Part shown: positions 13,415 through 37,421 of the stretch, in pieces
Numbering within the stretch: the stretch's first letter is position 1
Layout of the letters: every line of letters starts with the position of its first letter
From: Terrabacter aerolatus
GTDB taxonomy: Bacteria > Actinomycetota > Actinomycetes > Actinomycetales > Dermatophilaceae
DNA: 64,000 nt
Reading direction: 5' to 3'
Assembly: GCF_007991735.1 (NCBI RefSeq)
Contig: NZ_BJYX01000006.1
Location: 62,001 to 126,000 of the forward strand
The notes under the pieces: model-generated
The model's input: the letters and a program-made list of their open reading frames with translations, nothing else
The model's database searches: none
Told to the model about the DNA's origin: nothing
Program-made: the position numbers and the translations under genes

Positions 13415-16400
13415 TCAGCGCGCCGGCGTCGGCAGGCCCTCGTCACTGCGTGCCGCGAGGTCGCCGAGGGCCTGGGTGAAGCACTGCGCCGGGGGTGTCA
13501 CGAGCCCCGCGCCGACCTGGCCCGTGCCCGCGACCCGCCCGGCCATGCCGGTGTTGATCTGGGGCAGGATGCCGGTCCGGGCCACCGCCGCGACGTCGAT
13601 GCCGGTCGGGGTGCCGCGGAACTCGAGGATCGGCACCTGGTATGCCGTGTGCTCCCCCACCGTGATCTCGTACATCGTCTGCGTGGCCCGGAGCGCGAAC
13701 GGCACGTCACCGCCGACGAACTTCACGATCGCCGGGGCCGCGGCCATCGCGAAGCCACCGATACCGGCCGTCTCGGTGATCGCCGAGTCGCCGATGTCGG
13801 GGTTGGCGTCGTCAGGACCGTAGGAGCCGAGGAAGAGTCCCTCGGGGGTGTTGGCCGGCCCGGTGAACCAGGCGTCGCCCGTGCCCGACACGCGGATGCC
13901 GAAGTCGGTGCCGTTGCGCGCCATGGTCGTCACGACCGAGGACCCCGGGATGCCATGGGCGGCAAGGGTGCTCAGCTTGCAGGCCGGCATGCCGAGGTTG
14001 AGGAAGAAGTGCTCGTTGGCACCCGAGAAGCGCACCGCCTCGGCCACGTCGGTCGAGGACGCGTCGGCCGTGATCATCGTCGGGAGCAGCTCGCGCAGCA
14101 GCATGAGCGAGCCGGCACGGTTGCGGTTGTGGCCCTCGTCGCCCATCTGGAGCATCTGGGCGATGATCGCCTTGATGTCGATCGACCCTTGCTGCTCGAC
14201 GCGGGCCCGCACCGCCTGCTGGAGGATCGGGCCGAGCACGGTGTTCATCCACCGCAGCCGGTCGATGACCTCGGGCCCGTAGGCGCCGTAACGCAGCACC
14301 TTGCCGAGACCCTCGTTGAGCGAGCACCACGACGTGTTGTCGTGCACCTCGTCGCGCAGCTCGTAGACCCACATGGACGGGCTGATGACGCCGGCCATCG
14401 GTCCGACGGCGTCGCGGTGGTGGCACGGCTCGAGGGTGATGCCGTCACCCCTCTCCAGCTTGGCCTCGGCCTCCTCGGCGGTGTCGGCGAGGCCTTCGAA
14501 GAGCATGGCCCCGATGAGCGCGCCCTTGAGCGGCCCGGAGGCGCGGGCGAACTCGATCGGAGGACCCGCGTGCAGGAAGGTGCCGCGCTCCAGGCCGAGC
14601 GCCTCGTGTGCCGGTCGGACGTCGACGAGGTCGGCTCCGGCGGCGGTCATCCGGCGCAGCGCCTCGGCGTTGGCGGCTTCGCGCCGCGAGTCGGCGAGGA
14701 CGCGACCGAGGTCGGCTGCGGTGCCTGCCATCGGCGGCTGCCACGCCGCCTCGGTGACCGGGACCGCCTGGGCACGAAGGGCGTCCGAGAAGAGCGACAC
14801 GCCCGCCGCCGCGACGGAGACGTCGCGGCTGAGCAGTGCGTGGAGCGGCTCCCCGGCTGCGGCCGCCTGGGACCCGACCCCCGCCCAGTGGGCACTCTCC
14901 CCCGTCGAGTGGGCACTTCCACCCGTCGAGTGGGCACTTCCACCCGTCGACGGCGCGCTCACGTCGTGGCCGAGCAGGCGCAGGGCCGTGCGCGTGGCCG
15001 CGGCGTTCGACAGCTCGACGACGGCACCGGCCTCGACGAGCCGGGCGGCACTGGTCTGCAGTCCCTGCGGGTCGCCCTCGGTGCCGGTCAGGGACACGAC
15101 GACGTCGAGGTGGCGACCGTCCGCCGCAGCGGTCGCGCGCGCCGACCGGATGGCGTCGGCGAGCTCGGGAGCCGGGTCGGCGTGCGCGCCGTGGCCGAGC
15201 ACGAGGTCGAGCAGCAGCACGCCGCACGTCGGGTCGGCGGCCTCGGCGGCGATGCGCTCGAGGCGCAGCGACGGGTCGATCATCGGGTGGGCGCGGCCCT
15301 GGGTCATCGCGTCGTCGCCGAAGTCGATGACGACGTGCCCCGCGTCACGCAGGTCGGCGCCGAGGGCGAGCTCGGGCCGCAGCGGGATGTTGGAACGGAT
15401 GCCACCGACGACCTCGCCGGCCACGAGCATGGCCTCGTCGGCGAGGGTGCCTCCGCAGAACAGACCGCGAAGCGAGCTGCCCTGCGCCGCAGTGGACTCC
15501 GTCGTCGAGGCAGGATCTGAGACCTGCTCGTCGAGGACGACGGGCCTCCACGACGGCCAGGGCTCGGGCACCTCGCGACCGGTGGCGGCCAGAACGGCCT
15601 CGACCGCGGACGTCAGGTCGGGGCGACCCGCCCCGAGCGTGGCCCAGTGGACCGGCTTGCCGAGGGTCGCGGCATACGCCTCGAGGTCGGCGAGCACCTC
15701 GGGAGCGGGCGGCTTGGAGACGACGACGATCGACGTCGTCTCGGGGTCGGCGGCGAGCGCTGCGAGCGCCTGCCGCGTCGAGCGGGCCGCGACGGCGGAC
15801 GACAGGTCGCGCCCACCGACGCCGAGGCAGTGGCTGATCCCGACACCTGCGGCGTCGAGCAGGCACATGACCTGCTGCGCACCCGTGCCGGAGGCCGCGA
15901 CGAGTCCGACCGAGCCCGCCTGCACGACGTTGGCGAAGCCGAGGGCCACCCCTGCGACGACGGCGGTGCCGCAGTCCGGACCCATGACGAGCACGTCGGC
16001 GGCCGCCGCGGCGTCCTTGAGGCGGACCTCGTCCTCGACGGAGACGTTGTCGGAGAAGACCATGACCGACACCCCGGCCCGGACGGCGTCGAGGGCCTCG
16101 GTGACGGCGTGCTCGCCGGGGACCGACACGAGGGCCAGGTCCGCCCCCGAGAGCCGGATCGCCCCGCCGAGGGTCCGCGCGGCAGGTGCCTCGCCTAGAT
16201 CCCTGGAACCGCTTGCAGCAGAACGGGTCTGGGTGAGAGCAGACTCCAGGGCAGCCTGGCCGGCAGCGATGCCACCCTCGTCACCACGGATGGCGACGAC
16301 GAGGTCGTTGGGCGCCGATGCCGGCACCTCGAACCCCATGCCACGGATGACCTCGAGGTTCAGCTCGGTCGCCATCGCGACCTGGGCGGCCTCGACGCCG

Positions 16401-16486
16401 GGGGCGGCGGCGACGGTGCGCGACACCTGCATCAGGGTCACGGAGTCGAGGTAGGCACCGGTTCTCAGCTCGACGTGGTCAGCCAC
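13415..16486 (-). CDS. fdrA: FdrA-YlbE (AllF-AllG) fusion, predicted carbamoyltransferase
   Basis: 1023-residue protein joining two families that are separate genes in E. coli. Residues 1 to about 520 are FdrA-like with a succinyl-CoA-synthetase-like fold: VFSDNVSVEDEVRLKDAA, MGPDCGTAV and [26 protein letters not shown]. Residues from about 555 to the end are DUF1116/YlbE: GPLKGALIGAMLFEGLA, LEPCHHRDAVGPMAGV, SLNEGLGKVLRYGAYG and MARNGTDFGIRVSGTG. Between them lies a linker made of three copies of a seven-residue Ser-Thr-Gly-Gly unit. FdrA, YlbE and YlbF of E. coli (AllF, AllG, AllH) were reported to form oxamate carbamoyltransferase, which turns oxalurate plus phosphate into oxamate and carbamoyl phosphate. 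The GTG at 16486 has GGAG upstream and overlaps the DUF2877 stop by eight bases. Its substrate here may be ureidomalonate; that is inference. Confidence 0.88.
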   Translation of the reverse strand: MADHVELRTGAYLDSVTLMQVSRTVAAAPGVEAAQVAMATELNLEVIRGMGFEVPASAPNDLVVAIRGDEGGIAAGQAALESALTQTRSAASGSRDLGEAPAARTLGGAIRLSGADLALVSVPGEHAVTEALDAVRAGVSVMVFSDNVSVEDEVRLKDAAAAADVLVMGPDCGTAVVAGVALGFANVVQAGSVGLVAASGTGAQQVMCLLDAAGVGISHCLGVGGRDLSSAVAARSTRQALAALAADPETTSIVVVSKPPAPEVLADLEAYAATLGKPVHWATLGAGRPDLTSAVEAVLAATGREVPEPWPSWRPVVLDEQVSDPASTTESTAAQGSSLRGLFCGGTLADEAMLVAGEVVGGIRSNIPLRPELALGADLRDAGHVVIDFGDDAMTQGRAHPMIDPSLRLERIAAEAADPTCGVLLLDLVLGHGAHADPAPELADAIRSARATAAADGRHLDVVVSLTGTEGDPQGLQTSAARLVEAGAVVELSNAAATRTALRLLGHDVSAPSTGGSAHSTGGSAHSTGESAHWAGVGSQAAAAGEPLHALLSRDVSVAAAGVSLFSDALRAQAVPVTEAAWQPPMAGTAADLGRVLADSRREAANAEALRRMTAAGADLVDVRPAHEALGLERGTFLHAGPPIEFARASGPLKGALIGAMLFEGLADTAEEAEAKLERGDGITLEPCHHRDAVGPMAGVISPSMWVYELRDEVHDNTSWCSLNEGLGKVLRYGAYGPEVIDRLRWMNTVLGPILQQAVRARVEQQGSIDIKAIIAQMLQMGDEGHNRNRAGSLMLLRELLPTMITADASSTDVAEAVRFSGANEHFFLNLGMPACKLSTLAAHGIPGSSVVTTMARNGTDFGIRVSGTGDAWFTGPANTPEGLFLGSYGPDDANPDIGDSAITETAGIGGFAMAAAPAIVKFVGGDVPFALRATQTMYEITVGEHTAYQVPILEFRGTPTGIDVAAVARTGILPQINTGMAGRVAGTGQVGAGLVTPPAQCFTQALGDLAARSDEGLPTPAR
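14887..14949. repeat. Three 21-bp tandem repeats at the FdrA/YlbE junction
   Basis: Three consecutive 21-bp units (AGTGGGCACTTCCACCCGTC plus G; the first unit has three changes, the last two are identical) encode the seven-residue repeat Ser-Ala-His-Ser-Thr-Gly-Gly in the linker between the two domains of the fusion protein. The unit length keeps the frame, so copy-number change would only lengthen or shorten the linker. Confidence 0.9.
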
Positions 16487-17393
16487 GGTGGGCTCCTTCG
16501 TGGGGTTGTGGTCGGGTTCGGGAGGCGGACAGGTGGGCGTCGACCGCGCGCAGAGCGCCGCTGACGCCGGACAGCAGGTCGTGGCCGGAGGAGTGCCCGA
16601 TGGCGAGCACCCGACCGACGAGGTAAGTGAGGTCGGTGAGGTCGGTGAGGTCGGCACGCTCGGCGCTCGCGGGCGCCCCGGACGCGACGGCGGCATCCCC
16701 CGACCCGGCCCCGACGACGAGGGTGACGAGGCGCGCGACCTCCGGCACGGCATACCCCGTCCCGGCGGCGACGAGGAGGGCGGCGGACAGGCTCGTCGTC
16801 AGCGGCAGCGCGCCGAGGACGGCCGTGCGCACCGACGAGAGGCCGCAGCGGGACTCGGGCAGGTCGATCGCGCCGAGGGTGAGGAGGACACCGCACAGCG
16901 CGTCGTCGCCGCTCGGGGTCAGACCGCGCCCGACGCCGACGAGGCCGCGGACGGCCGGGTCGACCGGTCGGCCCGCGAGCGCGGCCGCGGTGAGGTCCTG
17001 GGCGAGGTCGCCGAGGACCCCGGCGTCCGGGAGCACGCCCTCGGCGCCGGTCCTGCGCTGCGCAGGACGCACCCTGCCCGGCCGCAGCACCCGCGCGGCG
17101 ACCACGTCGGCTCGCGGCAGGCGCACGCGGCCCCCTCCGACGACCACCTCGGCGCCGGGCTCCACGCCCCAGCGGACCTCGGTCGACGGGACGGCGAGCC
17201 GGATCCCGATGGGCAGCGCGACCGCGTCGGAGGCGAGCACGGCGAGGACCCGCTCGTGCGCGCCGAGGTCGAGGTAGAGGCACGTCGGGAACGCCGCCAG
17301 CACCCGGCAGCGCCGCGGCGCTCCCGCGACCTCGGCGGCGACGAGCGGCGACACGGCGCCCGGCAGCAGCGTCAGGTCGAGACCCTCGCCCAT
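16479..17393 (-). CDS. allH: DUF2877 / AllH-like subunit
   Basis: 304-residue protein of the DUF2877 family (E. coli YlbF/AllH). The diagnostic stretch is GLVGVGRGLTPSGDDALCGVLL near residues 175-195, followed by VRTAVLGALPLTTSLSAALL and IGHSSGHDLLSGV near the C-terminus. AllH is the third component reported for oxamate carbamoyltransferase. The ATG at 17393 is chosen because GGAGG precedes it with good spacing. Longer in-frame starts would overlap the divergent PucR gene. The stop overlaps the start of the FdrA-YlbE fusion, so the two proteins are made together, as the three-part E. coli enzyme would require. Confidence 0.86.
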   Translation of the reverse strand: MGEGLDLTLLPGAVSPLVAAEVAGAPRRCRVLAAFPTCLYLDLGAHERVLAVLASDAVALPIGIRLAVPSTEVRWGVEPGAEVVVGGGRVRLPRADVVAARVLRPGRVRPAQRRTGAEGVLPDAGVLGDLAQDLTAAALAGRPVDPAVRGLVGVGRGLTPSGDDALCGVLLTLGAIDLPESRCGLSSVRTAVLGALPLTTSLSAALLVAAGTGYAVPEVARLVTLVVGAGSGDAAVASGAPASAERADLTDLTDLTYLVGRVLAIGHSSGHDLLSGVSGALRAVDAHLSASRTRPQPHEGAHRG

Positions 17394-17562
17394 CCACACC
17401 TCCGCCGTCAGACCCGTGCGACCCGGGTGAGCCGTCAAGACCCGGGTGACCCGTGCCGCCCTGCCGTGACCCTGACCCTGACCGGAGCCGGGTCGGGCGC
17501 CCTCGGGGCCCGCGGACGCGGACCGTTGCGGTGACGCTACCGACGCTGGGTATGGTGCGCTC

Positions 17563-19290
17563 ATGGTGAAAGTTGCCAACGATCCGCCCCTGCCCGAGGG
17601 TGACTTGCCAGCCGCGGGGCGCGTCGGCGACCCCGAGCCCGAGGTCTCGGGCATCTCCTTGCGGCTCATCGCGGGGCTCGCCGCCACGGCTCACGGAGTC
17701 GTCCGCGCCGACGCCTACCGGCTCGACGTCAGCGTCGACAGCACGACCCAGCTCCGGTCGGCCCTGCGGGACGCGGGCGCGGGCGCCCGCCTGACCCACC
17801 GTCTCGTCCTCGCCGACGCCGCGGCCCTGGCAGACCAGGACGGCGACCCGGCCACCCTCGGCGAGGTTGTGGCGCTGCTCGACACCGGCGGCGCCGCCGG
17901 TCTCGTCGTCTCGGGGCTCAGCGGCACCCCGCTCGCGGCCCTCGTGGCCGCAGCCGAGTCGACCGGCCTGCCGCTCATCGACGTGCCCCTCGACCACATC
18001 GCCACCTTCACCACCGAGGTGCTGAGCGCGATCCTCGAGCACCAGACGGCGATCCTGCGCCGGCTCGAGGACGCCGACCGCGCGCTCGTCCAGATCGTCC
18101 TCGCCGGCGGCTCCCTCGACGACCTCTGCGAGCAGGTCGTCGGCTTCCTCGACGGCGCCGCCATGGTGACCACGACCGACGGGCGCGTCATCGCGCGCGC
18201 CGGCTCGCAGCGCGAGCTCGACCACGCCTTGTCGCTCGAGTGCTTCGACCGCACCGGCCGCCTGCTCACCGAGGCCGAGCCGATGGGGCCGCGCCCCGAC
18301 GGGCCGACGGCCAACCGCTCCGCCGTGCGCATCGTCGCCGGCCACCTCGACCACGGCGTGCTCATGGCGTTCTGCAGCCACCGGCACCTCACCGTCGACG
18401 ACGTGCGCCTGCTCGAGCGCGCAGCCACCGTCGCCGCCCTCGCCATCACCAAGGACCAGGCGGTCTCGGCGGTCGAGAGCAAGTACCGCGCCGAGTTCCT
18501 CCGCGACGCCCTGGCCGGCCGGGCCGGCTCCCCCGCCGACGCCGTCGCCCACGCGAGCTCGCTCGGCTGGGACATCGACCGACCGATGGTCGTCGTCGTC
18601 GCCGAGACCGACGAGGACGACGACCGCTCGACCCGCGACGCCGACGAGGTGCGCTTCCTCCAGCAGCGCTTCGCCCGGGCCTGGACCCACGCCGTGGCGG
18701 TGCGTGACGCCCGTTCTCCCGTCATGGGATTCAGCCGCGAGGTCGTCGCGCTGATCGGCGTCCCGGCCGAGGCGGAGACCGAGCAGGTCATGCGCATCGT
18801 CGGCGAGTACGTCCGGGTCGTGCGCGGCGACGGTGGCGGTGGCCGCCGGTCCTTCTCCGCCGGGGTGTCGCGGCCGATCACGTCGCCGGCCGGCCTGCCC
18901 CATGCGTACGACGAGGCGCTCTCGGCCGTCACCGTCGGCCGGCAGATGCACGGCGACGGGGCCCTGACCCACGTCGACGGCCTCGGCATCTACCGCCTGC
19001 TGGCGCTCATCCCCGACGGCGCCGACCTGCGCCGTTTCGTCCACGAGTCGCTGCGCGAGCTGGCCACCGACGACTCACCCGAGTACGCCGGGCTGCGCCA
19101 GACCCTGAGCATCCTCATCGACACCAACATGAACGTCGCCGAGACCGCGCGGCTGCTCTTCTTCCACTACAACACGCTGCGCTACCGCATCGGCAAGCTC
19201 GAGAAGATCCTCGGCCCCTTCACGACCGACGCCGACCTGCGCCTGACGCTCGCCCTCGCGCTCAAGATCCACCAGATGCGCGGCATCTGA
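17563..19290 (+). CDS. pucR: PucR family transcriptional regulator
   Basis: 575-residue regulator with a PucR-type N-terminal domain (residues 30-160), a middle GGDEF-like region, and a C-terminal PucR helix-turn-helix. The last includes the family hallmark MNVAETARLLFFHYNTLRYRIGKLEKILG. PucR proteins control purine, allantoin and related nitrogen-compound catabolism. The gene is divergent from allH and followed by the permease gene, so it is the obvious local regulator of the cluster. The ATG at 17563 has no clear ribosome binding site, and GTG at 17566 is an alternative. A GTTGCCAAC sequence at 17572-17580, similar to sequences in other cluster promoters, lies within its first codons. Confidence 0.92.
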   Translation: MVKVANDPPLPEGDLPAAGRVGDPEPEVSGISLRLIAGLAATAHGVVRADAYRLDVSVDSTTQLRSALRDAGAGARLTHRLVLADAAALADQDGDPATLGEVVALLDTGGAAGLVVSGLSGTPLAALVAAAESTGLPLIDVPLDHIATFTTEVLSAILEHQTAILRRLEDADRALVQIVLAGGSLDDLCEQVVGFLDGAAMVTTTDGRVIARAGSQRELDHALSLECFDRTGRLLTEAEPMGPRPDGPTANRSAVRIVAGHLDHGVLMAFCSHRHLTVDDVRLLERAATVAALAITKDQAVSAVESKYRAEFLRDALAGRAGSPADAVAHASSLGWDIDRPMVVVVAETDEDDDRSTRDADEVRFLQQRFARAWTHAVAVRDARSPVMGFSREVVALIGVPAEAETEQVMRIVGEYVRVVRGDGGGGRRSFSAGVSRPITSPAGLPHAYDEALSAVTVGRQMHGDGALTHVDGLGIYRLLALIPDGADLRRFVHESLRELATDDSPEYAGLRQTLSILIDTNMNVAETARLLFFHYNTLRYRIGKLEKILGPFTTDADLRLTLALALKIHQMRGI

Positions 19291-19613: not shown

Positions 19614-21110
19614 ATGGCTTTGGGCTTGGGCTGGAAACTGCACGGGGACGGCAAGACGATGGGCCCCGACGACGTCGTGGCTCCTTACGAACGGCTGTCG
19701 TGGGGCAAGACGGTCGGTCTCGGCGCGCAGCACGTCGTGGCGATGTTCGGGGCGACCTTCGTCTTCCCGCTGGTCATGGGTCTCAACCCCCAGCTCGCGA
19801 TCATGATGAGCGGCATCGCGACGATCTGCTTCCTGCTGATCGTCAACGGAAAGGTCCCGAGCTACCTCGGCACGTCGGCGAGCTTCGTCGGTGCCGTGGC
19901 GGCCATCCGGGCGCAGGGCGGCACCTCCCAGGAGGTCACCGGCGCCATCCTCGTCGCCGGCGTCGTGCTCGCGCTCGTCGGCGTGGCGATCCACTTCGTC
20001 GGCTCGTCGGTGCTGCACAAGGTGCTGCCGCCGGTCGTGACGGGCGCCGTCGTCATGCTCATCGGCTTCAACCTCGCGCCGGTCGTCGCCAACATCTACT
20101 GGCCCCAGGACCAGTGGGTCGCGCTGCTCGTCATGACGTTCACCATCATCTGCGCGGTCGCCTTCAAGGGCTTCGCCTCGCGCATCGCGGTGTTCCTCGC
20201 GCTCATCTTCGGCTACGTCATCTCGTGGCTGTTCGACAAGATGTTCGGCCAGATCACCTCGTTCGACGCCGGTGCCGGCAAGGTCACGACGCACTTCCGC
20301 ACGAACTTCGACAACCTCGCGGCCCAGCCGTGGTTCGGCCTGCCGCCGTCGACCGGCACGCTCGGCCCCGACGGCAAGGCCATGGTCGGCATCCACGCGC
20401 CGTCGTTCTCGGTCGCGGCGATCCTGCTCGTGCTCCCCGCTGTCATCGCGCTCATCGCCGAGAACACCGGTCACGTCAAGGCCGTCGCCGAGATGACCAA
20501 GACCAACCTCGACCCCTACATGGGTCGCGCCATCGCCGCCGACGGCATCGGCACGGTCATCGCGAGCTCGGTCGGTGGTTCGCCCACGACGACGTACGCC
20601 GAGAACATCGGCGTCATGGCCGCCACCCGCGTCTACTCGACGGCGGCCTACTACGTCGCCGCGATCGTCGCGATCGTCTTCGGCCTCTCCCCGAAGTTCG
20701 GGGCGCTCGTGGCCTCGGTGCCGGGTGGCGTCCTCGGCGGCATCACCGTCGTGCTCTACGGCATGATCGGCCTGCTCGGCGCGAAGATCTGGAAGGAGAA
20801 CGGGGTCGACTTCGGCAACCCGATCAACCTCGTCCCGGTCGCAGCCGGCATCGTCATCGGCATCGGCAACGTGTCGCTCGTCTTCACCTCGGACTTCACG
20901 CTCGGCGGCATCGCGCTCGGCACGATCGTCGCCGTCGTCGCCTACCACGTGGCCCGCGCCCTCGCGCCGGCCGACCTGCGTGCCCGCGCCGACGCCGCAG
21001 GAGGCACGATGATCTCGCTGGGCGAACGGGAAGGGGACTACGGCGACGCCGACGGCATCGACGACCTCTACCAGGACCAGCCGGGCGGACCGGACCTGCG
21101 CCGCCGCTGA
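19614..21110 (+). CDS. NCS2 (uracil-xanthine permease family) transporter, uracil-like
   Basis: 498-residue membrane transporter of the nucleobase:cation symporter-2 family with 12-14 hydrophobic segments. The substrate-site region reads SSVGGSPTTTYAENIGVMAATRVYST. This matches uracil/pyrimidine permeases (UraA, PyrP, RutG type: TTY-ENIGVMA) and not xanthine/urate members, which carry an NxGxxxxTxxxSR pattern. The start of the protein (GLGAQHVVAMFGATFVFPLVMGLNP) and SGIATICFLLIVNGKVPSYLGTS-like region are also characteristic. A 60-residue insert rich in Gly and charged residues lies between helices in the middle. It sits directly upstream of the molybdenum hydroxylase genes, pointing to pyrimidine uptake for the cluster. 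Uracil specificity is inference. Confidence 0.92.
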   Translation: MALGLGWKLHGDGKTMGPDDVVAPYERLSWGKTVGLGAQHVVAMFGATFVFPLVMGLNPQLAIMMSGIATICFLLIVNGKVPSYLGTSASFVGAVAAIRAQGGTSQEVTGAILVAGVVLALVGVAIHFVGSSVLHKVLPPVVTGAVVMLIGFNLAPVVANIYWPQDQWVALLVMTFTIICAVAFKGFASRIAVFLALIFGYVISWLFDKMFGQITSFDAGAGKVTTHFRTNFDNLAAQPWFGLPPSTGTLGPDGKAMVGIHAPSFSVAAILLVLPAVIALIAENTGHVKAVAEMTKTNLDPYMGRAIAADGIGTVIASSVGGSPTTTYAENIGVMAATRVYSTAAYYVAAIVAIVFGLSPKFGALVASVPGGVLGGITVVLYGMIGLLGAKIWKENGVDFGNPINLVPVAAGIVIGIGNVSLVFTSDFTLGGIALGTIVAVVAYHVARALAPADLRARADAAGGTMISLGEREGDYGDADGIDDLYQDQPGGPDLRRR

Positions 21111-21190: not shown

Positions 21191-21224
21191 GTTGCCAAAA
21201 GCCCACGTGCAGCGATGCACAACG
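21191..21224. promoter_or_regulatory. Candidate cluster operator upstream of the Mo-hydroxylase operon
   Basis: GTTGCCA (21191-21197) and TGCACAAC (21216-21223) form a spaced GTTG...CAAC pair, and GCAGCGATGCACAACG (21209-21224) aligns base for base in length with GCAGCATGTGACAACG before hyuA and GCAGGAGGTGACAACG before carbamate kinase. It lies 45-75 bases before the first gene of the operon. Regulation by the PucR protein is inference. Confidence 0.5.
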
Positions 21225-21266
21225 ATCACTAGTCCCCACCGGGGGTCGGAAGGCAGGATCGGTTCG

Positions 21267-22151
21267 GTGAAGCCCGCCCCCTTCGAGCACCAAGCACCGC
21301 TCACCGTCGAGCAGGCCGTCTCCGTCCTCACCGAGGTCGGGTACGACGGCAAGGTCCTCGCCGGCGGTCAGAGCCTCATCCCCATCCTCAACATGCGCCT
21401 CGCCTCGCCGGGCCATCTCGTGGACATCAACCGCGTCGCCGGGCTCGACACCGTCGAGGTGACGCCGGACTCGGTCCGGGTGGGTGCCCTCGTGCGCCAT
21501 GCCGGCCTCGAGCGCTCCGAGAGTGCGTATGCCGTGCTCCCCCTCCTGCGCCAGGCGCTCGTCAACGTCGCCCACCCCGCGATCCGCAACCGTGGCACGA
21601 CCGTCGGCTCCATCGCGCACGCCGACGCGGCCGGCGAGATGCCGGCGATCCTCGCCCTCACCGACGGCGTCGTCGAGGTCGCGGGGCCGGCCGGCTCGCG
21701 CGAGATCGCCTGGTCGGACTTCTTCCTCGGAGCCCTCGAGACCTCGCTCGCCGCCGAGGAGCTCGCGGTGGCCGTGCGCTTCGGTCGCTTCCCCGACGGG
21801 ACGGGCACGGCGTTCACCGAGGCCGCCAGACGGCACGGCGACTACGCCATGGCCGGTGTCGGGGTCGCCGTGACGCTCGCCGACGGGGTGGTCTCGGCCG
21901 CCCGCGCGTCGTTCGTGTCGGTAACGGACGTGCCCTCGGTCCTCGACCTCGCCCCGGCCCTCGGTGGCGTCGAGCCGGGCACGTCCGCGTGGGACTCGGC
22001 GCTCGACGATGCCGCCGAGGCGGTGCGCGGGCACGTCGAGCCCGAGGGCGACATCCACGCGAGCGCCGACTACCGCCGCATGCTCGTCACGGAGCTGACC
22101 CGCCGGGTCCTCCCCCAGGCCGCCGACCGCGCAGGAGCCAGCGATGACTGA
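21267..22151 (+). CDS. Molybdenum hydroxylase, FAD-binding medium subunit
   Basis: 294-residue FAD subunit of a xanthine dehydrogenase/CO dehydrogenase-type enzyme (CoxM/CutM class). It passes electrons from the iron-sulfur subunit to the acceptor. The FAD-binding motifs are VLAGGQSLIPILNMRLASP near residue 30 and IRNRGTTVGSIAHADAAGEMPAIL near residue 110, both typical. The GTG at 21267 starts the protein just before the KPAPFEHQAP segment normal for the family, with GGAAGG and CAGGA upstream; longer frames begin in the promoter region. Its stop overlaps the next start (8 bases), giving the gene order medium-small-large. Confidence 0.93.
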   Translation: MKPAPFEHQAPLTVEQAVSVLTEVGYDGKVLAGGQSLIPILNMRLASPGHLVDINRVAGLDTVEVTPDSVRVGALVRHAGLERSESAYAVLPLLRQALVNVAHPAIRNRGTTVGSIAHADAAGEMPAILALTDGVVEVAGPAGSREIAWSDFFLGALETSLAAEELAVAVRFGRFPDGTGTAFTEAARRHGDYAMAGVGVAVTLADGVVSAARASFVSVTDVPSVLDLAPALGGVEPGTSAWDSALDDAAEAVRGHVEPEGDIHASADYRRMLVTELTRRVLPQAADRAGASDD

Positions 22152-22698
22152 CACGACCAGCGAGACCCTCCACGACGTGACGGTCTCGGTCAACGGGGTG
22201 CGCCACTCGGCCACCGTGCCCGCGCGCCGCCTGCTGTCGGACTTCCTGCGCCACGACCTCGAGCTGACCGGCACCCACGTCGGCTGCGAGCACGGGGTCT
22301 GCGGTGCCTGCACCGTCCTCGTCGACGGCGCACCGATGCGCTCGTGCCTGATGTTCGCCGTCACCGCGCAGGACCACGCCATCACGACCGTCGAGGGCCT
22401 GTGCTCGGCGCCCGACGCCCGCGTCGCCCCGACCGGCGAGTCGATGAACCCGGTGCAGCAGGCGTTCGCCGAGTGCCACGGCCTCCAGTGCGGCTTCTGC
22501 ACGCCGGGCTTCCTGACGACCGTCACGGCCTACCTCGACGAGAACCCGTCGCCGACGAGCGAGCAGGCGCGAGAGGCGATCTCGGGCAACCTGTGCCGCT
22601 GCACCGGCTACCAGAACATCGTCAAGAGCGTCTTGCGCGCCGCCGAGATCCGGGCCGAGCGGGCCGGTTCCGACGTCACGACCGAGGAGCAGGCATGA
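22144..22698 (+). CDS. Molybdenum hydroxylase, [2Fe-2S] small subunit
   Basis: 184-residue iron-sulfur subunit (CoxS/CutS class) with two [2Fe-2S] clusters. The plant-ferredoxin-type cluster ligands are Cys48, Cys53, Cys56 and Cys68 (GCEHGVCGACTVLVDG). The second cluster ligands are Cys116, Cys119, Cys151 and Cys153 (CGFCTPG and NLCRCTGYQNIV). All eight are present and the length is normal. It overlaps both neighbours by a few bases, showing tight co-translation with the FAD and molybdenum subunits. Confidence 0.96.
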   Translation: MTDTTSETLHDVTVSVNGVRHSATVPARRLLSDFLRHDLELTGTHVGCEHGVCGACTVLVDGAPMRSCLMFAVTAQDHAITTVEGLCSAPDARVAPTGESMNPVQQAFAECHGLQCGFCTPGFLTTVTAYLDENPSPTSEQAREAISGNLCRCTGYQNIVKSVLRAAEIRAERAGSDVTTEEQA

Positions 22699-27987: not shown

Positions 27988-28029
27988 GGCTGCCTCCTCG
28001 GTGGGAGCCCCCTGGCATCCCGTGCGAGC

Positions 28030-28059: not shown

Positions 28060-28086
28060 GAGTTCTCGGCCCTCGCGACTCACACG

Positions 28087-28644: not shown

Positions 28645-28655
28645 GGTGAGCCGGC

Positions 28656-29831: not shown

Positions 29832-31976
29832 ATGACAGCAGGCATCTCCCCCGGCCGCCGGATCCGCATCGGCATCGACACCGGCGGCACGTTCACCGAC
29901 GTCGTCGCCCTCGACGAGGACTCGGGCGAGCTCGTCACGACCAAGACGCCCTCGACGCCGAGCAACCCCGCCGACGGCTTCCTCACCGGCGTCCGCAAGG
30001 TCCTCGACCTCATGGGCGCGAGCGGCGACGACATCAGCGCCGTCTCGCACGGCACGACCGTCGCGACGAACAAGCTCCTCGAGGGCAAGGTGGAGGCGCT
30101 CGGCTTCGTCACGACGGAGGGCTACGAGTTCATCCTCGAGATCGCCCGTCAGGCCGTGCCCGACGGCTACGGCAACTCCTACTTCTGGGTCAAGCCCGCG
30201 CGCATCGTGCCGGCCGACTACGTCAAGACCGTCGGCGGCCGCCTGGACTTCGAGGGCAACGAGATCCGCCCGTTCGACGAGGAGCGCGCCGTCACCGTCG
30301 CCCGCTGGTTCAAGGAGCGGGGCATCACGACGATCGCCGTCTGCTTCCTGCACTCCTACGCCGACGACAGCCACGAGCTCGCCATGCGCGAGGTCCTGCG
30401 CCGCGAGCACCCCGGGGCCGTCGTCTCGATCAGCTCGGAGGTGCTGCGCGAGTACCGCGAGTACGAGCGCTCCATGACGACCCTCGTCGACGCCGCGGTC
30501 AAGCCCAACGTGTCGCGCTACGTCGCCAACATCCACCAGCGGCTCGACGAGTTCGTCGGCAGCAGCGAGAAGCTGCCCTTCTACATCATGAAGTCCAACG
30601 GCGGCGTGCTCTCCGCCGACGAGGTCGTGCACCAGCCGATCACGACGGTCCTCTCCGGACCTGCCGCCGGTGCACTCGGCGCCGGCCTCATCGCCGGCCG
30701 CGCCGGCTTCGACAAGGTCCTGACCTGCGACGGCGGCGGCACCTCGACCGACGTCTCCGTCGTCCTCGCCGGAGAGCCGACGCTGACGACCGAGGGCACC
30801 GTCGGTGCCTACCCGAGCAAGATCCCCATGATCGACGTCGTCACCGTGGGCGCCGGCGGCGGCTCCATCGCATGGATCTCCCCCGAGGGCTCGCTCAAGG
30901 TCGGACCCCAGTCCGCGGGCGCCGACCCCGGACCGCTCTGCTACGCCAAGGGCGGCACCGAGCCGACCATCACCGACGCGCACGTGACCCTCGGCCGCAT
31001 CCCCCCGCACCTGCTCGGCGGCGAGATCCCCCTCGACGTCGACGCTGCCCGGGCCGGGATCACCGAGCTCGCCGCGAGGCTCGGTCTCGACTTCGAGCGC
31101 TGCGCCACGGGCATCCTCGAGATCTCCGCATGGAACCAGGCCAACGCCCTGCGCCAGGTGAGCGTCAAGCGAGGTCTCGACGTGCGTGACTTCATGCTCG
31201 CCACCTTCGGCGGGTCCGGGTCGCTGCTCGCCTGCCGCCTCGTCGACATCCTCGGCCTCGCCGGCGTCGTCGTGCCGCAGAACCCCGGCAACGTCTCCGC
31301 CTTCGGCCTGCTCACCGTGGACGTCAAGAACGACTACGTCCAGACCGCCGTCTCTCGCCACGCCTCGCTCGACCACGCCGCGGTGCAGAAGACGTTCGAC
31401 GACCTGACGGCCAAGGCCGCGGGCGCCCTCGACGCCGAAGGCTTCCCGCGCGACAGCCACCGCTACACCCGCACCGTCGACCTGCGCTACTTCGGCCAGG
31501 CCTACGAGGTCCGCGTCGCCGCGCCCGAGGGCGACGTCGACGAGGCGTATGCCGCGGGCGTCGCGTCGCGCTTCCACGACGAGCACCGCGCCCTCTACGG
31601 CTACGACTTCCGCAGCGACCCGACGCAGCAGGTCGAGTGGGTCAACCTGCGCGTCACCGGCGTCGGGCCCATCACGCGCCCGGAGCTGCGCGAGCTCGCC
31701 GAGGCCACCGGCGCCGCCGACGTGCGCGAGCGGGCCCACCGGTCCGTCAGGCCGGTGTGCTTCGACGCCGAGACCGGCTACGTCGAGACCGACGTGTGGT
31801 GGCGTCCCGACCTCCTCGCCGGCGACACCATCGAGGGTCCGGCGATCGTCGAGGAGTTCGGCTCGACCGTGCCGGTCCACCCCGGCTTCGTCGTCCGTGT
31901 CGACACGCTCGGCAACCTCGTCATCACCAAGAGCGCCGACCAGACCACCGCCCCCACGACCGAGATGGAGGCCTGA
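29832..31976 (+). CDS. hyuA: Hydantoinase/oxoprolinase subunit A
   Basis: 714-residue HyuA-family protein with an actin/hexokinase-like ATPase fold. IGIDTGGTFTDVVALDEDSGEL at the N-terminus is the first phosphate-binding motif. Also present are VSHGTTVATNKLLEGK, LSGPAAGALGAGLIA, TCDGGGTSTDVSVV and GAGGGSIAWI. Together with subunit B these enzymes use ATP to open or carboxylate cyclic amides and ketones (hydantoin, oxoproline, acetophenone and acetone types); the exact substrate cannot be read from sequence. It begins an operon hyuA-hyuB-NmrA and carries in its upstream region the sequence shared with other cluster promoters. The following hyuB start is preceded by GGAGG within the end of hyuA. 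Confidence 0.93.
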   Translation: MTAGISPGRRIRIGIDTGGTFTDVVALDEDSGELVTTKTPSTPSNPADGFLTGVRKVLDLMGASGDDISAVSHGTTVATNKLLEGKVEALGFVTTEGYEFILEIARQAVPDGYGNSYFWVKPARIVPADYVKTVGGRLDFEGNEIRPFDEERAVTVARWFKERGITTIAVCFLHSYADDSHELAMREVLRREHPGAVVSISSEVLREYREYERSMTTLVDAAVKPNVSRYVANIHQRLDEFVGSSEKLPFYIMKSNGGVLSADEVVHQPITTVLSGPAAGALGAGLIAGRAGFDKVLTCDGGGTSTDVSVVLAGEPTLTTEGTVGAYPSKIPMIDVVTVGAGGGSIAWISPEGSLKVGPQSAGADPGPLCYAKGGTEPTITDAHVTLGRIPPHLLGGEIPLDVDAARAGITELAARLGLDFERCATGILEISAWNQANALRQVSVKRGLDVRDFMLATFGGSGSLLACRLVDILGLAGVVVPQNPGNVSAFGLLTVDVKNDYVQTAVSRHASLDHAAVQKTFDDLTAKAAGALDAEGFPRDSHRYTRTVDLRYFGQAYEVRVAAPEGDVDEAYAAGVASRFHDEHRALYGYDFRSDPTQQVEWVNLRVTGVGPITRPELRELAEATGAADVRERAHRSVRPVCFDAETGYVETDVWWRPDLLAGDTIEGPAIVEEFGSTVPVHPGFVVRVDTLGNLVITKSADQTTAPTTEMEA

Positions 31977-31977
31977 C

Positions 31978-34008
31978 ATGTGCTTCTCCTGCCAGACCGC
32001 GGCGACCCGCCTCGCCCCCGTCGACGCCGCCACCGGCTCACTGCACCCTGACGGCTCGGCCACCCACGACGGCGCCCCGGTGAACCCCGCAGGTCTCCCC
32101 ACGGCATACGAGCACGGCAACCGCCTGACGCCGGAGGGCAGCTCGGTCGACCCCATCCTCGTCGAGATCGTCGAGGGCACCCTCGCGAGCGTCGAGATGG
32201 AGGTCGAGACGGCCATCGCGCGCACGTCCCGCTCCCCCATGATCCGCGACGCGCACGACTTCCGCGCCGGCATCCACGACCGGCAGCTGCGCAAGCTGAC
32301 CGGCCGCTCCTACAGCGCGCTCGTGCACCCCATCGCCCGTGACTTCCCGCTGGCGGAGATGAGCGAGGGCGACGTCTTCTTCCACAACGACGTCTACGAG
32401 TCCGAGGGCGGCATCGGCCACCTGCCCGACCTCTGCGTCACCGTCCCGGTCTTCTCCGGCGGCGAGGTCGTCGCGTTCGTCCAGGCGTTCGGCCACCACG
32501 ACGACATCGGCGGCGCCGTGCCCGGATCGATGCCGAGCAACGCGCAGACGGTGTTCGAGGAGGGCCTGTCGGTCCCACCGATCAAGCTGTGGGACAAGGG
32601 AGTTCCCAACCAGGCGGCGCTGCGCATCATGACGCGCAACAGCCGCATGCCCGACAGCCTCGCGGCCGACCTCGACGCCGAGTGCTCGGCCTGCCTCATG
32701 GGCGCGCGTCGCCTCTCCGAGCTCTTCGAGCGCTACGGCCGCGACACCATCGAGGCCGCCTTCGACGCGATCCTCGACAAGACGACCGAGACCTACCGCC
32801 GCGAGATCCTCAGCAAGATCCCCGACGGCACCTACGTCTGGGAGGACTACGCCGAGCACGACGGCGTCGACGAGCCGATGCTGCACACGCAGCGGATCAC
32901 GCTGACGAAGGTTTCGACCGGCGGCCCCGGCCCCGGCGACGGAGGCCCCAAGCTCATCATCGACTTCACCGGCACCGCCAAGCAGGCCAAGGGCCCGATC
33001 AACCACTGCGGCGACTACGTCGGCGGCAACTTCCTCAAGAAGTGGCTCGCGCCGATCCTGCGCAACCTCGCCGACACCCCCGAGCGGATGGCCGAGCTCG
33101 ACGTCAACGAGGGCATCGTGCCCCTCATCGAGATGAAGTTCCCCGAGAAGGGGACGCTGCTCACGCCGATCTACCCCGCGCCGACCAACGCCCGCACGTT
33201 CGTCATCCTGCGCCTGCTCGGCGTGCTCGCCGGCGTCGTCGCCAAGGCCGTCGACGGCAAGATGCCCGCCGACCAGGAGACGATCCGCTACACCGGCGTC
33301 TACGGCAAGGACCGCGACGGCAACGACTACCTCATGCGCGAGGTGCTCGGCGGCGGCTCGGGTGGTCGCTACTACGCCGACGGCGAGGACACCATCCACG
33401 TCGTCCCCGACAGTCGCAACCTGCCGACCGAGTTCACCGAGAGCCGGTTCCCGTTCATCGTCGAGCGCCTCGGCCTCGCGGTCGACTCCGGCGGCGCGGG
33501 CCGCCACCGCGGCGGTCTCGGCTACGAGAAGCACATCCGGATGCTCAAGGACGCTCACTTCATGTCGATCGCCGACCGCTCGATCCTCGCCTGCTGGGGC
33601 GTCAAGGGCGGCAAGGCCGGCCGTCCCTTCGAGGTCACCGTCGACGTGGGCGGACCCGAGGAGCGCACCGTCGACGCCCTCGCCGACGCCGAGGTCGTCA
33701 AGGCCGGACAGGTGATCCGGATCCGGACCACGGGCGGTGGCGGTTGGGGCGACCCGCTCGAGCGTCCGTACGACGAGATCGAGCGCGACCTGCGCTGGGG
33801 CAAGGTCTCGTTCGACGGCGCGCGCCGCGACTACGGCGTCGTCGCGACCGGCGACCTCGACGAGCCGGTCATCGACGCGGCCGCGTCGGACGCCCTGCGC
33901 GAGCAGCTGCGCGCCGACCGTGCGGACGAGCAGCCGTTCTTCGACCGCGGTCCGGGCTACGCGACGCTCGCCGCGGGACAGACTGCGGCGGATGTCGACT
34001 GGGTCTGA
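31978..34008 (+). CDS. hyuB: Hydantoinase/oxoprolinase subunit B
   Basis: 676-residue HyuB-family protein, partner of HyuA. Family landmarks: ARTSRSPMIRDAHDFRAGIHD, FFHNDVYESEGGIGHLPD, AFGHHDDIGGAVPGSMP, and FPFIVERLGLAVDSGGAGRHRGG, then TTGGGGWGDPLERP. It is longer than usual at the N-terminus, adding about 55 residues that begin MCFSCQ, a CxxC pair at residues 2 and 5 that could bind metal. The ATG at 31978 has GGAGG upstream and begins one base after the hyuA stop. The substrate is unknown; a cyclic ureide related to the pyrimidine or hydantoin family would fit the cluster. Confidence 0.93.
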   Translation: MCFSCQTAATRLAPVDAATGSLHPDGSATHDGAPVNPAGLPTAYEHGNRLTPEGSSVDPILVEIVEGTLASVEMEVETAIARTSRSPMIRDAHDFRAGIHDRQLRKLTGRSYSALVHPIARDFPLAEMSEGDVFFHNDVYESEGGIGHLPDLCVTVPVFSGGEVVAFVQAFGHHDDIGGAVPGSMPSNAQTVFEEGLSVPPIKLWDKGVPNQAALRIMTRNSRMPDSLAADLDAECSACLMGARRLSELFERYGRDTIEAAFDAILDKTTETYRREILSKIPDGTYVWEDYAEHDGVDEPMLHTQRITLTKVSTGGPGPGDGGPKLIIDFTGTAKQAKGPINHCGDYVGGNFLKKWLAPILRNLADTPERMAELDVNEGIVPLIEMKFPEKGTLLTPIYPAPTNARTFVILRLLGVLAGVVAKAVDGKMPADQETIRYTGVYGKDRDGNDYLMREVLGGGSGGRYYADGEDTIHVVPDSRNLPTEFTESRFPFIVERLGLAVDSGGAGRHRGGLGYEKHIRMLKDAHFMSIADRSILACWGVKGGKAGRPFEVTVDVGGPEERTVDALADAEVVKAGQVIRIRTTGGGGWGDPLERPYDEIERDLRWGKVSFDGARRDYGVVATGDLDEPVIDAAASDALREQLRADRADEQPFFDRGPGYATLAAGQTAADVDWV

Positions 34009-34010: not shown

Positions 34011-34847
34011 GTGACGACGTTTCTCGTGATCGGCGCGGCCGGCAAGACCGGCCGCGCCGTCACGCGCTGCCTCACGTCACAGGGAGCCGTCGTGCGCGCT
34101 GCCGTGCGATCGCCGGAGCGGGCCGAGACAGCGTATGCCGTTGGGGCCCGGTCGATCTCGGTCGTTGACCTCGCCACGGGCCTGGGCCTCGACGAGGCCG
34201 TGGCGGGTGTCGACGGCGTCTACCACCTGGCGCCCAACGTGCACCCCGACGAGGTGGCCATGGCAGACCGGGTCGCCGGCGCCGCCGCCCGGGCAGGCTT
34301 GTCCCGCTTCGTCTTCCACTCCGTGCTGCATCCCGACGACGCGTCGATGCCGCACCACCTGCGCAAGGCGGAGGCCGAGAAGGTCGTGCGCACCCACCTG
34401 CCCGGAGCAACGGTCCTGCGCCCCGCGGCATACCACCAGAACCTCGTCGGGCCGGCCGTCTCGGGCAGGCTGGCCGTGCCGTACTCGCTCGACGCGCCGT
34501 TCACGAACGTCGACCTCGAGGACGTGGCCGAGGTGGCGGCCACGGTGCTGACCCATTCAGGGCACGAGGGTGTCACCTACGACCTCGCGGGGCCCGAGGT
34601 GCTCTCGGTGCGCGACCAGGCGGCCGTGGCCACGGACGTTCTCGGGCACCGCGTCGAGGCCGTCCGCGTCGACGTCGCGGAATGGGCCGCCGGGCCGGGT
34701 GCCACCCTGTCACCGCAGGCGCGGGCCGACCTCCTGGCCATGTTCGCCGCCTATGACCGCGCCGGTCTCGTCGGCGACCCGTCCACGCTCCGACGCCTGA
34801 TGGGACGCGAGCCCCGCACGTGGGGGCAGGCCCTCTCCGCGGTCTGA
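34011..34847 (+). CDS. NmrA-like NAD(P)-binding protein
   Basis: 278-residue atypical short-chain dehydrogenase of the NmrA/HSCARG type. The nucleotide-binding motif is degenerate but clear (FLVIGAAGKTGRAVTRCL, residues 4-21), followed by RFVFHSVLHPDDA and ATVLRPAAYHQNLVG. The usual catalytic Tyr-x-x-x-Lys of SDRs is not obvious, so it may sense NAD(P) rather than catalyse. It starts with a GTG two bases after the hyuB stop and so belongs to the hyu operon. Role unknown. Confidence 0.85.
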   Translation: MTTFLVIGAAGKTGRAVTRCLTSQGAVVRAAVRSPERAETAYAVGARSISVVDLATGLGLDEAVAGVDGVYHLAPNVHPDEVAMADRVAGAAARAGLSRFVFHSVLHPDDASMPHHLRKAEAEKVVRTHLPGATVLRPAAYHQNLVGPAVSGRLAVPYSLDAPFTNVDLEDVAEVAATVLTHSGHEGVTYDLAGPEVLSVRDQAAVATDVLGHRVEAVRVDVAEWAAGPGATLSPQARADLLAMFAAYDRAGLVGDPSTLRRLMGREPRTWGQALSAV

Positions 34848-34883
34848 CGACCCGCAGGTTCGACTCGCCGGCGAGGCCCGGCC

Positions 34884-35277: not shown

Positions 35278-35311
35278 GCGCCCGCTCCGCCGCGCTCCCT
35301 AGGCTCACGCC

Positions 35312-35335
35312 ATGACGACCGAGGACGCGCCGTGA
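35312..35335 (+). CDS. Possible seven-codon leader ORF before carbamate kinase
   Basis: ATG at 35312 opens a frame encoding MTTEDAP whose TGA overlaps the GTG start of carbamate kinase (GTGA). It lies seven bases after a TAGGCT -10-like hexamer, which would allow leaderless translation. A short coupled leader of this kind could set translation of carbamate kinase. It could also be chance. Confidence 0.3.
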   Translation: MTTEDAP

Positions 35336-36279
35336 GGGTGCTCGTGGCGCTGGGCGGCAACGCCATGATCGGGCCCGACGGCAGCGCGACGCCCCAGGCC
35401 CAGCTGCATGCCATCGCCGGCGCCAGCCGCCATCTCGCCGAGCTCGTCGCGGCCGGCCACGAGGTCGTCGTGACGCACGGCAACGGGCCCCAGGTGGGCA
35501 ACCTCCTCGTCAAGAACGAGCTGGCCGCGCACGTCGTGCCGCCGGTGCCGCTCGACTGGTGCGGCGCGCAGACGCAGGGGACGATCGGCTTCACGCTCCT
35601 CGACACCCTCGAGACCGCGCTCGCCGAACGGGGCGTCGAGCGCCCCGTCGCGGCGATCATCACGCGCACCCTCGTCGACGCCGACGACCCCGGCTTCACC
35701 CACCCGACGAAGCCGATCGGGCGCTTCCTCCCGCGCGAGCAGGCCCAGACCCTCATCGACCACGGCGAGCGCTGGGAGGACCGCGGCGACAAGGGCTGGC
35801 GACGGGTCGTGGCCTCCCCCGAGCCCGTCGAGGTCCTCGAGACCCACACGCTCCACACACTCCTCGCCGCCGGATACGTCGTCGTCACGGCCGGCGGCGG
35901 GGGCATCCCCGTGGTCCGCGACGCGGACGGCGCGGTGCGCGGTGTCGAGGCAGTCATCGACAAGGACCTCACGGCAGCCCTGCTCGCCCGCGCTGTCCAC
36001 GCCGACGTGCTCGTCATCGCCACCGACGTCGCCCATGCCGTCGCGGCCTGGGGCACGCCAGAGGCCCACGACATCGGCCGCGTCACGCTCGCGGAGATGG
36101 AGACGTATGCCGCCGACGGGCACTTCGCGTCGGGCTCCATGGGCCCGAAGGTCGAGGCGGCTCTGCGCTTCGTCCGGTCGGGCGGTTCGCGCTCGATCAT
36201 CACGGCCCTCGACCAGCTCGCTCCGGCCATCGACGGCCACGTCGGGACCGTCATCGAAAACCCTGAAAGAGAAAGGTGA
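35332..36279 (+). CDS. arcC: Carbamate kinase
   Basis: 315-residue carbamate kinase of the amino-acid kinase fold; it uses carbamoyl phosphate and ADP to make ATP, CO2 and ammonia. Family motifs: [11 protein letters not shown] at the N-terminus, [19 protein letters not shown], the [15 protein letters not shown] segment, [27 protein letters not shown] and [17 protein letters not shown]. Its presence in a catabolic cluster with FdrA/YlbE/DUF2877 mirrors the E. coli allantoin region, where a carbamate kinase (YbcF/AllK) lies with the same families. The GTG at 35332 follows a possible leader. The barbiturase-family gene begins six bases after its stop. Confidence 0.95.
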
Positions 36280-36284
36280 TTCAC

Positions 36285-37421
36285 GTGCCCGAAGCCATTG
36301 AGGTGCGCAAGGTCCCGATCCACTCGGTCGCCGACGCGTCGGAGCTCGCCAAGCTCATCGACGACGGTGTCATGGAGGCGAGCCGTGTCGTCGCCATCAT
36401 CGGCAAGACCGAGGGCAACGGCGGCGTCAACGACTACACCCGCATCATCGCCGACCGCGCCTTCCGCGAGGTCCTCGTCGAGAAGGGTGCACCGGCCGAC
36501 CAGGTCAAGCAGGTCCCGATCGTCTGGTCCGGTGGCACCGACGGCATCATCAGCCCCCACGCGACGATCTTCGCGACCGTGCCGGCCGAACGCGCCGAGC
36601 AGTCCGACGAGCCTCGGCTGACCGTGGGGTTCGCCATGAGCGAGCCGATCAAGCCGGAGGAGATCGGCTACGTCGCCATGGTGAGCAAGGTCGCCGACGC
36701 CGTGAAGGTCGCGATGGAGCGCGCCGGCATCACCGACCCGGCCGACGTGCACTACGTCCAGACCAAGACGCCGCTGCTGACGATCCACACGATCCGCGAC
36801 GCGAAGTCCCGCGGCCACGAGGTCTGGACCGAGCACACGCACGAGTCGATGGACCTCTCCAACGGCACGACCGGCCTCGGCATCGCCGTCGCGCTCGGCG
36901 AGATCGAGATGCCGACCGACGCCGACATCATGCACAACCGGTCGCTCTTCTCCTCCGTGGCCTCGTGCTCCTCGGGTGTCGAGCTCGACCAGGCGCAGGT
37001 CGTCGTGGTCGGCAACGCCAAGGGCGTCGGCGGCCGCTACCGCATCGGTCACTCCGTCATGCAGGACGCCCTCGACGCGGACGGCGTCTGGGGCGCGATC
37101 AAGGACGCCGGGCTCGACCTGCCGGAGCGCCCGCACAGCAGCGACATCCAGGGCCGGCTCGTCAACGTGTTCCTCAAGTGCGAGGTGAGCCAGGACGGCA
37201 CCGTGCACGGCCGCCGCAACGCGATGCTCGACGACTCGGACGTGCACTGGCACCGTCAGATCAAGTCGGCGGTCGGCGGCGTGACGGCGTCCGTGACCGG
37301 TGACCCGGCCGTCTTCGTGTCGGTGTCGGCCGCCCACCAGGGCCCCGACGGTGGCGGCCCGGTCGCCGCGATCGTCGACCTCGGCGAGGGCGAGCCCACC
37401 GGCTACCGCTGGGCCCGCTGA
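36285..37421 (+). CDS. Ring-opening amidohydrolase, barbiturase/cyanuric acid hydrolase family
   Basis: 378-residue enzyme of the small barbiturase/cyanuric acid hydrolase family, which hydrolyses a cyclic ureide or triazine ring without the usual amidohydrolase metal site. The three-fold internal symmetry is visible as three Lys/Ser regions: Lys41 ([10 protein letters not shown]) with Ser82 ([12 protein letters not shown]), Lys161 (VQTKTPLL) with the Ser227-229 region ([11 protein letters not shown]), and Lys298 (NVFLKCEV) with the Ser346-348 region ([13 protein letters not shown]). GTG at 36285 is preferred because GAAAGGTGA precedes it. Barbiturate (to ureidomalonate) is more likely than cyanurate, given the pyrimidine-type permease and Mo hydroxylase. 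Sequence alone does not separate the two activities. Confidence 0.9.

Follow-up and report, generated by a model that had tools for sequence, protein, structure and literature searches.

A probable carbamoyl-phosphate variant of the oxidative pyrimidine pathway in Terrabacter aerolatus, predicted from a cluster of barbiturase, AllFGH and carbamate kinase genes

Barbiturase and ureidomalonase form an established route that yields malonate and urea (Soong et al. 2001, as cited in PMC3758960). AllFGH of E. coli is described as an oxamic transcarbamylase (PMC11326118). Genes for barbiturase, AllFGH and a carbamate kinase lie together in a stretch of 64,000 nucleotides from Terrabacter aerolatus (contig NZ_BJYX01000006.1, positions 62,001 to 126,000; G000:C6:62001-126000), which is called the window. 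It has a G+C content of 72.6% in a genome of 4.42 Mb. Gene content and comparative genomics indicate that the cluster probably encodes a carbamoyl-phosphate variant of the oxidative pyrimidine pathway, from uracil to malonate with recovery of ATP. Compared genomes and loci are cited by G and L numbers.

The pathway may start with the import of uracil by an NCS2 permease. A CoxMSL molybdenum (Mo) hydroxylase would oxidise uracil to barbiturate, which barbiturase would open to ureidomalonate. The AllF-AllG fusion protein and AllH would then cleave ureidomalonate with phosphate into malonamate and carbamoyl phosphate. A carbamate kinase, if it works in this direction, would transfer the phosphate group to ADP, yielding ATP, NH3 and CO2. 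Malonamate could be converted to malonate by a nitrilase-type amidase, in many relatives by an amidase-signature enzyme. A family III coenzyme A (CoA)-transferase would activate malonate, and an AccDA-like protein probably decarboxylates the product; both are encoded on another contig.

The ring opener of the AtzD family (36276..37421, + strand; PF09663) is, by its sequence, a barbiturase. The best PDB match is 5hwe 'Barbiturase' with 676 bits and 82% identity, and cyanurate hydrolases reach at most 316 bits. It is 99% identical to the barbiturase of Terrabacter tumescens JCM 1365. Barbiturases (group VI of the AtzD/Bar family) have a signature of N, H, K, V and S/A at AtzD positions 195, 321, 325, 345 and 346 (Peat et al. 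2013, PMC3758960). The window protein fits at all five sites with N196, H326, K330, V350 and S351. A tree of 61 sequences set off, with 100/100 support, a group of 52 rows that includes the window protein and 5hwe, named barbiturase by its depositors. N-H-K-V is present in all 52, with S, G or A as the next residue. Outside the group stand the solved cyanurate hydrolases AtzD, TrzD and that of Moorella; these three have R-T-R-G-G. The phylogeny thus bore out the barbiturase-family assignment of the initial annotation, without a grouping with cyanurate hydrolases. A third AtzD-family type, neither barbiturase nor cyanurate hydrolase, was seen in L023 (G108), L215 and L216, with N, K, G and G at four specificity sites and a gap at the remaining one; an amidase adjoins in L215-L217.

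Barbiturase and AllG occur together. Presence was counted with tblastn or hidden Markov model searches in an order sample of 297 genomes and a phylum sample of 396 genomes, with G000, G001 and G017 common to both. Open reading frame (ORF) picks based on G+C at third codon positions had dropped or mis-framed the NmrA-like and CoxG genes and some barbiturase and carbamate kinase genes. In the order sample, PF09663 was found in 22 genomes and AllG in 30; all 22 barbiturase genomes have AllG versus 8 of the 275 others (Fisher 6e-27, a value that ignores kinship). In the phylum sample, PF09663 was found in 27 genomes, 22 with barbiturase and 5 with other AtzD types, and AllG in 49. AllG is present in 22/22 barbiturase-type genomes versus 27/374 others (Fisher 7e-23, kinship again ignored). 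The five other homologues share 36-41% identity with the window protein (tblastn), and AllG was detected in none of their genomes, three of which are less than 90% complete. Taken together, the samples contain 41 distinct barbiturase genomes, all with AllG. A third set comprised the best 80 named barbiturase loci. AllG was searched in 49 of the genomes behind them and found in 48, the exception being Rhodococcus sp. IEGM 1409, and carbamate kinase lies within about 10 kb of barbiturase in 78 loci, all but L164 and L166. The co-occurrence for which the initial annotation had suggested a survey is near-perfect, with a swap in Rhodococcus.

The genes are also linked. Barbiturase and AllG share one contig in 17 of the 22 order genomes, at 19-48 kb distance; the assemblies of G016, G056 and G163 are broken, with the two genes on separate contigs. 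The distance is 4-18 kb in the further phylum genomes, with one contig in 14 of 19. G353 has a run of barbiturase, NCS2 permease, carbamate kinase, AllH, AllF, AllG, CoxM, CoxS and CoxL together with an amidase and HyuA, and parts of it recur in other genomes of distant classes. In G642, barbiturase, AllH, AllF and AllG are accompanied by a distant Mo hydroxylase (large subunit 29%), and no carbamate kinase was found in the 15 kb examined. Regions were compared for 17 of the 21 other barbiturase genomes of the order (all but G016, G056, G093 and G163). PucR, NCS2, CoxMSL, HyuAB, carbamate kinase, barbiturase and AllFG share one contig in 15 of these 17; among the 15, AllH was unmatched in five and the nitrilase in three. 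AllH was traced in part of the genomes. Judged by these counts, the gene arrangement is far from chance.

Rhodococcus provides a natural control. Reportedly, Soong et al. worked in 2001 with R. erythropolis JCM 3132. This strain is the same as CCM2595, a reported pyrimidine user (PMC3961730). PF09663 was present in 12 of 28 Rhodococcus genomes, in one as a contig-end fragment, and AllG is absent from 10 of the 12. Instead, an amidase-signature protein directly follows barbiturase in all 11 loci that are long enough (10 genomes; 8/8 long regions and 3/4 short ones, L293 being cut off), with 75-98% identity to the reference amidase of Rhodococcus sp. IEGM 1409 (L166:11141-12745). Carbamate kinase was searched in 13 genomes at E<=1e-20: it was not detected in Rhodococcus G338 and G731 and was present in the 11 others. 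To our knowledge, no sequence is known for ureidomalonase activity, and the amidase next to barbiturase is a gene candidate for it. The long regions of the erythropolis-type G731, G732 and G742 hold CoxMSL, HyuAB, NmrA, CoA-transferase and AccDA genes, which in G338 are spread over two contigs; the other five long Rhodococcus regions matched neither CoxMSL nor HyuAB. AllFGH with carbamate kinase on the one hand and the Rhodococcus amidase on the other thus seem to stand in for each other at a single step, and the remaining gene set is common to both variants.

Among the matches listed for the best 80 named loci, the top non-self ones of this amidase have 37-43% identity and are mostly the amidase between CoxL and HyuA; one such match follows barbiturase in L138. 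Unlike in Rhodococcus, no amidase of the putative ureidomalonase type stands beside the barbiturase of the window. The initial annotation had considered that a ureidomalonase gene might account for the step. Neither the candidate nor a second amidase-signature query had a match in 84 kb of the window contig, the part of the genome that the search covered.

The phylogenetic analysis of AllG (90 rows, midpoint root only, identical sequences counted once) separated the barbiturase-linked proteins from the E. coli type by a branch with 100/98 support. On one side are 56 rows from barbiturase genomes other than Rhodococcus and three rows from clusters lacking barbiturase: L047 (G156), L048 (G042) and L053, which has a very long branch. 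The other side comprises E. coli AllG, the AllG of G715 and G723, which is linked to AllD, and three Rhodococcus rows (G734, G736). The tree leaves out L234 (no match), L218-L225 (duplicates of order loci) and weaker second AllG copies.

Apart from CoxG, the families listed for the cluster by the initial annotation were found at their places by profile searches. The AllF-AllG fusion (FdrA-YlbE/DUF1116; 13415..16486, − strand) matches PF00549 and PF06545 and the PDB entries 3dmy 'Protein fdrA' and 3clq; it is proposed to provide subunits of a ureidomalonate transcarbamoylase. The ORF reaches 16753. The start was read from the translation near 16486, and 16487-16753 is probably an overextension into AllH. 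AllH (DUF2877; 16479..17687, −; PF11392, 61.5 bits) has a probably overextended N-terminus. A PucR/CdaR-type regulator (17563..19290, +; HTH_30, GGDEF_2) is divergent from allH. The NCS2 nucleobase permease (19614..21110, +) is followed by the Mo hydroxylase with its FAD subunit (CoxM-like; 21192..22151, +; PF00941, PF03450), 2Fe-2S subunit (CoxS-like; 22144..22698, +; PF01799, PF00111) and large subunit CoxL (22695..25127, +; MoCoBD domains; start from the translation). A CoxG-like protein owes its name to the COXG match of the gene at the same place in G001 (L054:16374-17126); its frame was corrected from an arginine-rich one (25171-25701) to 25124..25783 (+). The nitrilase-superfamily amidase (25786..26709, +; PF00795) has no NCBIfam model above cut-off and is proposed as malonamate amidohydrolase. 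HyuA of the ATP-dependent hydantoinase/oxoprolinase family (29832..31976, +; PF05378, PF01968, PF19278) and HyuB (32146..34008, +; PF02538) follow; the HyuB ORF opens at 31549 and the start is approximate. An NmrA-like NAD(P)-binding protein (34011..34847, +), overlooked in the earlier gene list, lies between HyuB and carbamate kinase. It has 83% identity to L094:7706-8542, and the G122 gene at the same place matches PF05368; erythropolis-type Rhodococcus likewise have a homologue (44-45% identity) after HyuB. The carbamate kinase (35332..36279, +; TIGR00746, 359 bits, cut-off 358) is the sole match of the genome at E<=1e-20. Between nitrilase and HyuA (26861-28794), the series is broken in T. 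aerolatus by oppositely oriented genes of helix-turn-helix, RDD and unknown type. Downstream of AllF-AllG, an N,N-dimethylformamidase beta-subunit-like protein (11756-13366, −) had no homologue in the regions of order relatives examined.

In the PDB, CoxL matches 6-hydroxypseudooxynicotine dehydrogenase and quinoline 2-oxidoreductase best, and CO dehydrogenase ranks lower. CoxL has the motif PYRGAGR where CSFR, which we take to be the active-site motif of the large subunit, would mark an aerobic CO dehydrogenase. Both the motif and the PDB ranking liken the Mo hydroxylase to hydroxylases of heterocycles, and uracil is the presumed substrate. For the permease, the nearest named model is RutG with 344 bits, below the cut-off of 759; the permease of L166 is also RutG-like. 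A cytosine-deaminase-like amidohydrolase adjoins barbiturase in two loci (L240:6203-7486 and L242:11898-13292; 198 and 233 bits, below curated cut-offs); an unnamed amidohydrolase model gives a better score for the L240 protein (219 bits). Such a gene would feed cytosine into the barbiturase pathway.

A second amidase is expected only if malonamate is an intermediate. Of 39 regions, 34 have such an enzyme no more than 2.5 kb from the CoxL-HyuA span, a nitrilase in 15 and an amidase-signature enzyme in 19. The G178 amidase gave no hint of a malonamidase; its 33 listed PDB matches are amidase-signature enzymes of other kinds. Of the best 80 named loci, 45 have a family III CoA-transferase near barbiturase and 20 have an AccD-AccA fusion. 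The CoA-transferase scores best with the succinate-glutarate model (304 bits), followed by the CoA:oxalate model (238 bits), all scores being below cut-offs. AccDA matches the transferase subunits of acetyl-CoA carboxylase, and the protein has no biotin carboxylase domain. This suggests a transformation of malonate via malonyl-CoA into acetyl-CoA. In T. aerolatus, the pair on contig C5 (L328:7043-9561) is likely a malonate-using module. The pair is not exclusive to the barbiturase route, as G042 without barbiturase has it as well.

Several observations weigh against the proposed pathway. Two NCBIfam models name other functions. The cyanuric acid amidohydrolase model is above cut-off for the window barbiturase (468 bits, cut-off 360), and CoxL exceeds the cut-off of the aerobic CO dehydrogenase model CODH_aero_grp5 (1543 bits, cut-off 950). 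Cyanurate hydrolysis was rejected because of signature and tree, and CO oxidation was set aside on the motif and the PDB ranking. The linkage has exceptions: barbiturase is on another contig than AllG, beside another permease, in G006 and G262. Some barbiturase genomes (e.g., G319, G307) have extra, weaker AllG copies outside the tree, and G734 and G736 combine barbiturase and the Rhodococcus amidase with AllG of another group. The second amidase was not found in five of the 39 regions (L107, G001, G049, G006 and G262); two of these regions end inside CoxL, and ten tested ORFs of G001 and G049 gave no amidase. In the PDB ranking of the CoA-transferase, an unnamed CaiB/BaiF protein and formyl-CoA transferase stand above succinate-hydroxymethylglutarate CoA-transferase. 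The permease beside barbiturase in G353 (L231:12531-14165) is closer to pbuX (247 bits) than to RutG (108 bits), and those in G006 (L089:10816-12204, 27%) and G262 have 25-27% identity to the window permease; in G353 and G006 they are perhaps barbiturate importers. Uricase is encoded in 18 of the 41 barbiturase genomes. HyuAB goes with CoxMSL in both variants and also without barbiturase. Among the 27 phylum genomes with AllG and no PF09663 match, the regions of 20 were examined. G376, G477 and G498 (L250-L252; a neighbouring AllG group) have a CoxMSL-HyuAB-AllFG run; G042 and G156, from the AllG group of the window, have CoxMSL, HyuAB, AllFG and carbamate kinase. None of these five genomes has a PF09663 match. 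HyuAB may be the ring opener in the former three. The proposal of the initial annotation that FdrA-YlbE and DUF2877 take the place of ureidomalonase has good comparative support from co-occurrence and the Rhodococcus swap, with these relatives as a point against it. In barbiturase genomes, the ring opened by HyuAB may be that of a different oxidised pyrimidine; alternatively, HyuAB may spend ATP on opening barbiturate. If HyuAB spends ATP on the same molecule, the net gain is nil; the description as ATP-conserving holds only if HyuAB spends no ATP on the same flux.

The barbiturase-free clusters, together with HyuA and HyuB in 17 of 17 order genomes examined besides that of the window, would also fit an AllFGH that serves HyuAB. 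A hydantoin-like ring would be oxidised by CoxMSL to parabanate, opened by HyuAB with ATP to oxalurate and cleaved by AllFGH into oxamate and carbamoyl phosphate; the amidase would form oxalate, and barbiturase would be a neighbour with a separate input. This is unlikely. G338, G731, G732 and G742 have HyuAB, CoxMSL and barbiturase but no AllG, so HyuAB does not track AllFGH. AllG was present with every barbiturase of the two samples. The CoA-transferase scores, both below cut-off and with a mixed PDB ranking, are nearer to succinate-glutarate than to oxalate, and the AccDA-like protein is better suited to malonyl-CoA than to oxalyl-CoA. The ring could also be another than uracil, a xanthine-like or synthetic compound whose oxidised product is opened by barbiturase, with the AllFGH chemistry as proposed. 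The substrate of a Mo hydroxylase is not readable from sequence, and the permeases of G353, G006 and G262 differ from that of the window. The RutG-like permeases of the window and L166, the cytosine-deaminase-like neighbour of barbiturase in G645 and G653, and the start of the known oxidative pathway from pyrimidines (PMC3758960) leave a small probability for this.

Oxalurate from purines is a very remote explanation for the co-location of AllFGH and carbamate kinase with nucleobase genes, despite the activity of the E. coli enzyme (PMC11326118), the PucR-type regulator and the uricase genes mentioned above. No uricase was found in the T. aerolatus genome nor in 23 of the 41 barbiturase genomes. 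AllD adjoins AllFGH in E. coli, G715 and G723, but had no match in the searched 84 kb of the window contig, and the barbiturase-linked AllG proteins form their own group. Hardly more probable is a ureidomalonase elsewhere in the genome that releases malonate and urea, with AllFGH and carbamate kinase employed otherwise. It would agree with the established route (PMC3758960) and with the presence of both amidase and AllG in G734 and G736, and the amidase search covered 84 kb of the contig, not the whole genome. Against it stand the constant position of the amidase after barbiturase in the 11 Rhodococcus loci and its distant matches of 37-43% in the best 80 named loci. Of the 12 Rhodococcus genomes with barbiturase, 10 lack AllG, and the two searched for carbamate kinase lack that gene; both are usual elsewhere. 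The carbamoyl-phosphate variant with ureidomalonate as AllFGH substrate is preferred.

A broader version is somewhat favoured: at least two actinobacterial classes would use a dedicated AllFGH as ureidomalonate transcarbamoylase, so that uracil oxidation yields carbamoyl phosphate and ATP in place of urea, and Rhodococcus an amidase at that step, with HyuAB as a second, ATP-driven opener of further oxidised pyrimidines (e.g., of 5-methylbarbiturate from thymine) that feeds AllFGH. If true, AllFGH gains a second physiological substrate beside oxalurate, its only substrate in the parts of the literature consulted. The pathway, whose described end product is urea, would gain an energy-recovering branch. 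Candidates also emerge from the comparison, namely a gene for ureidomalonase, a gene set for uracil dehydrogenase and a malonate-consuming module. A literature search confined to papers available without subscription found no proposal that AllFGH takes part in the breakdown of barbiturate.

The locus shares features with several known systems. With the cyanuric acid hydrolase pathway (AtzD/TrzD), it has the protein family and the match to the NCBIfam hydrolase model in common. The specificity residues are N-H-K-V-S in the window instead of R-T-R-G-G, and the proteins are apart in the tree. Organic-nitrogen loci of nitrifiers with biuH are similar in having allFGHK beside ureide genes and sometimes a cytosine permease; the main text describing them does not use the term barbiturase, and the authors propose oxalurate as substrate (PMC12625717). 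E. coli AllFGH and its carbamate kinase AllK (YbcF) belong to the same protein families, and carbamoyl phosphate is also the predicted product here. In comparison to E. coli, AllF and AllG of the window are fused, share 37% and 47% identity, respectively, and belong to a separate AllG group; AllFGH is located beside barbiturase and Mo hydroxylase, not beside allantoin genes. The classical oxidative pyrimidine pathway is represented by barbiturase and a putative uracil-oxidising enzyme in one cluster of the window. A close relative is the pathway in Rhodococcus: the window barbiturase is 82% identical to 5hwe, and CoxMSL, HyuAB and the CoA-transferase-AccDA pair also occur in the erythropolis type. 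In place of the single amidase of Rhodococcus, the window, for which no urea formation is predicted, has AllFGH, carbamate kinase and a second amidase.

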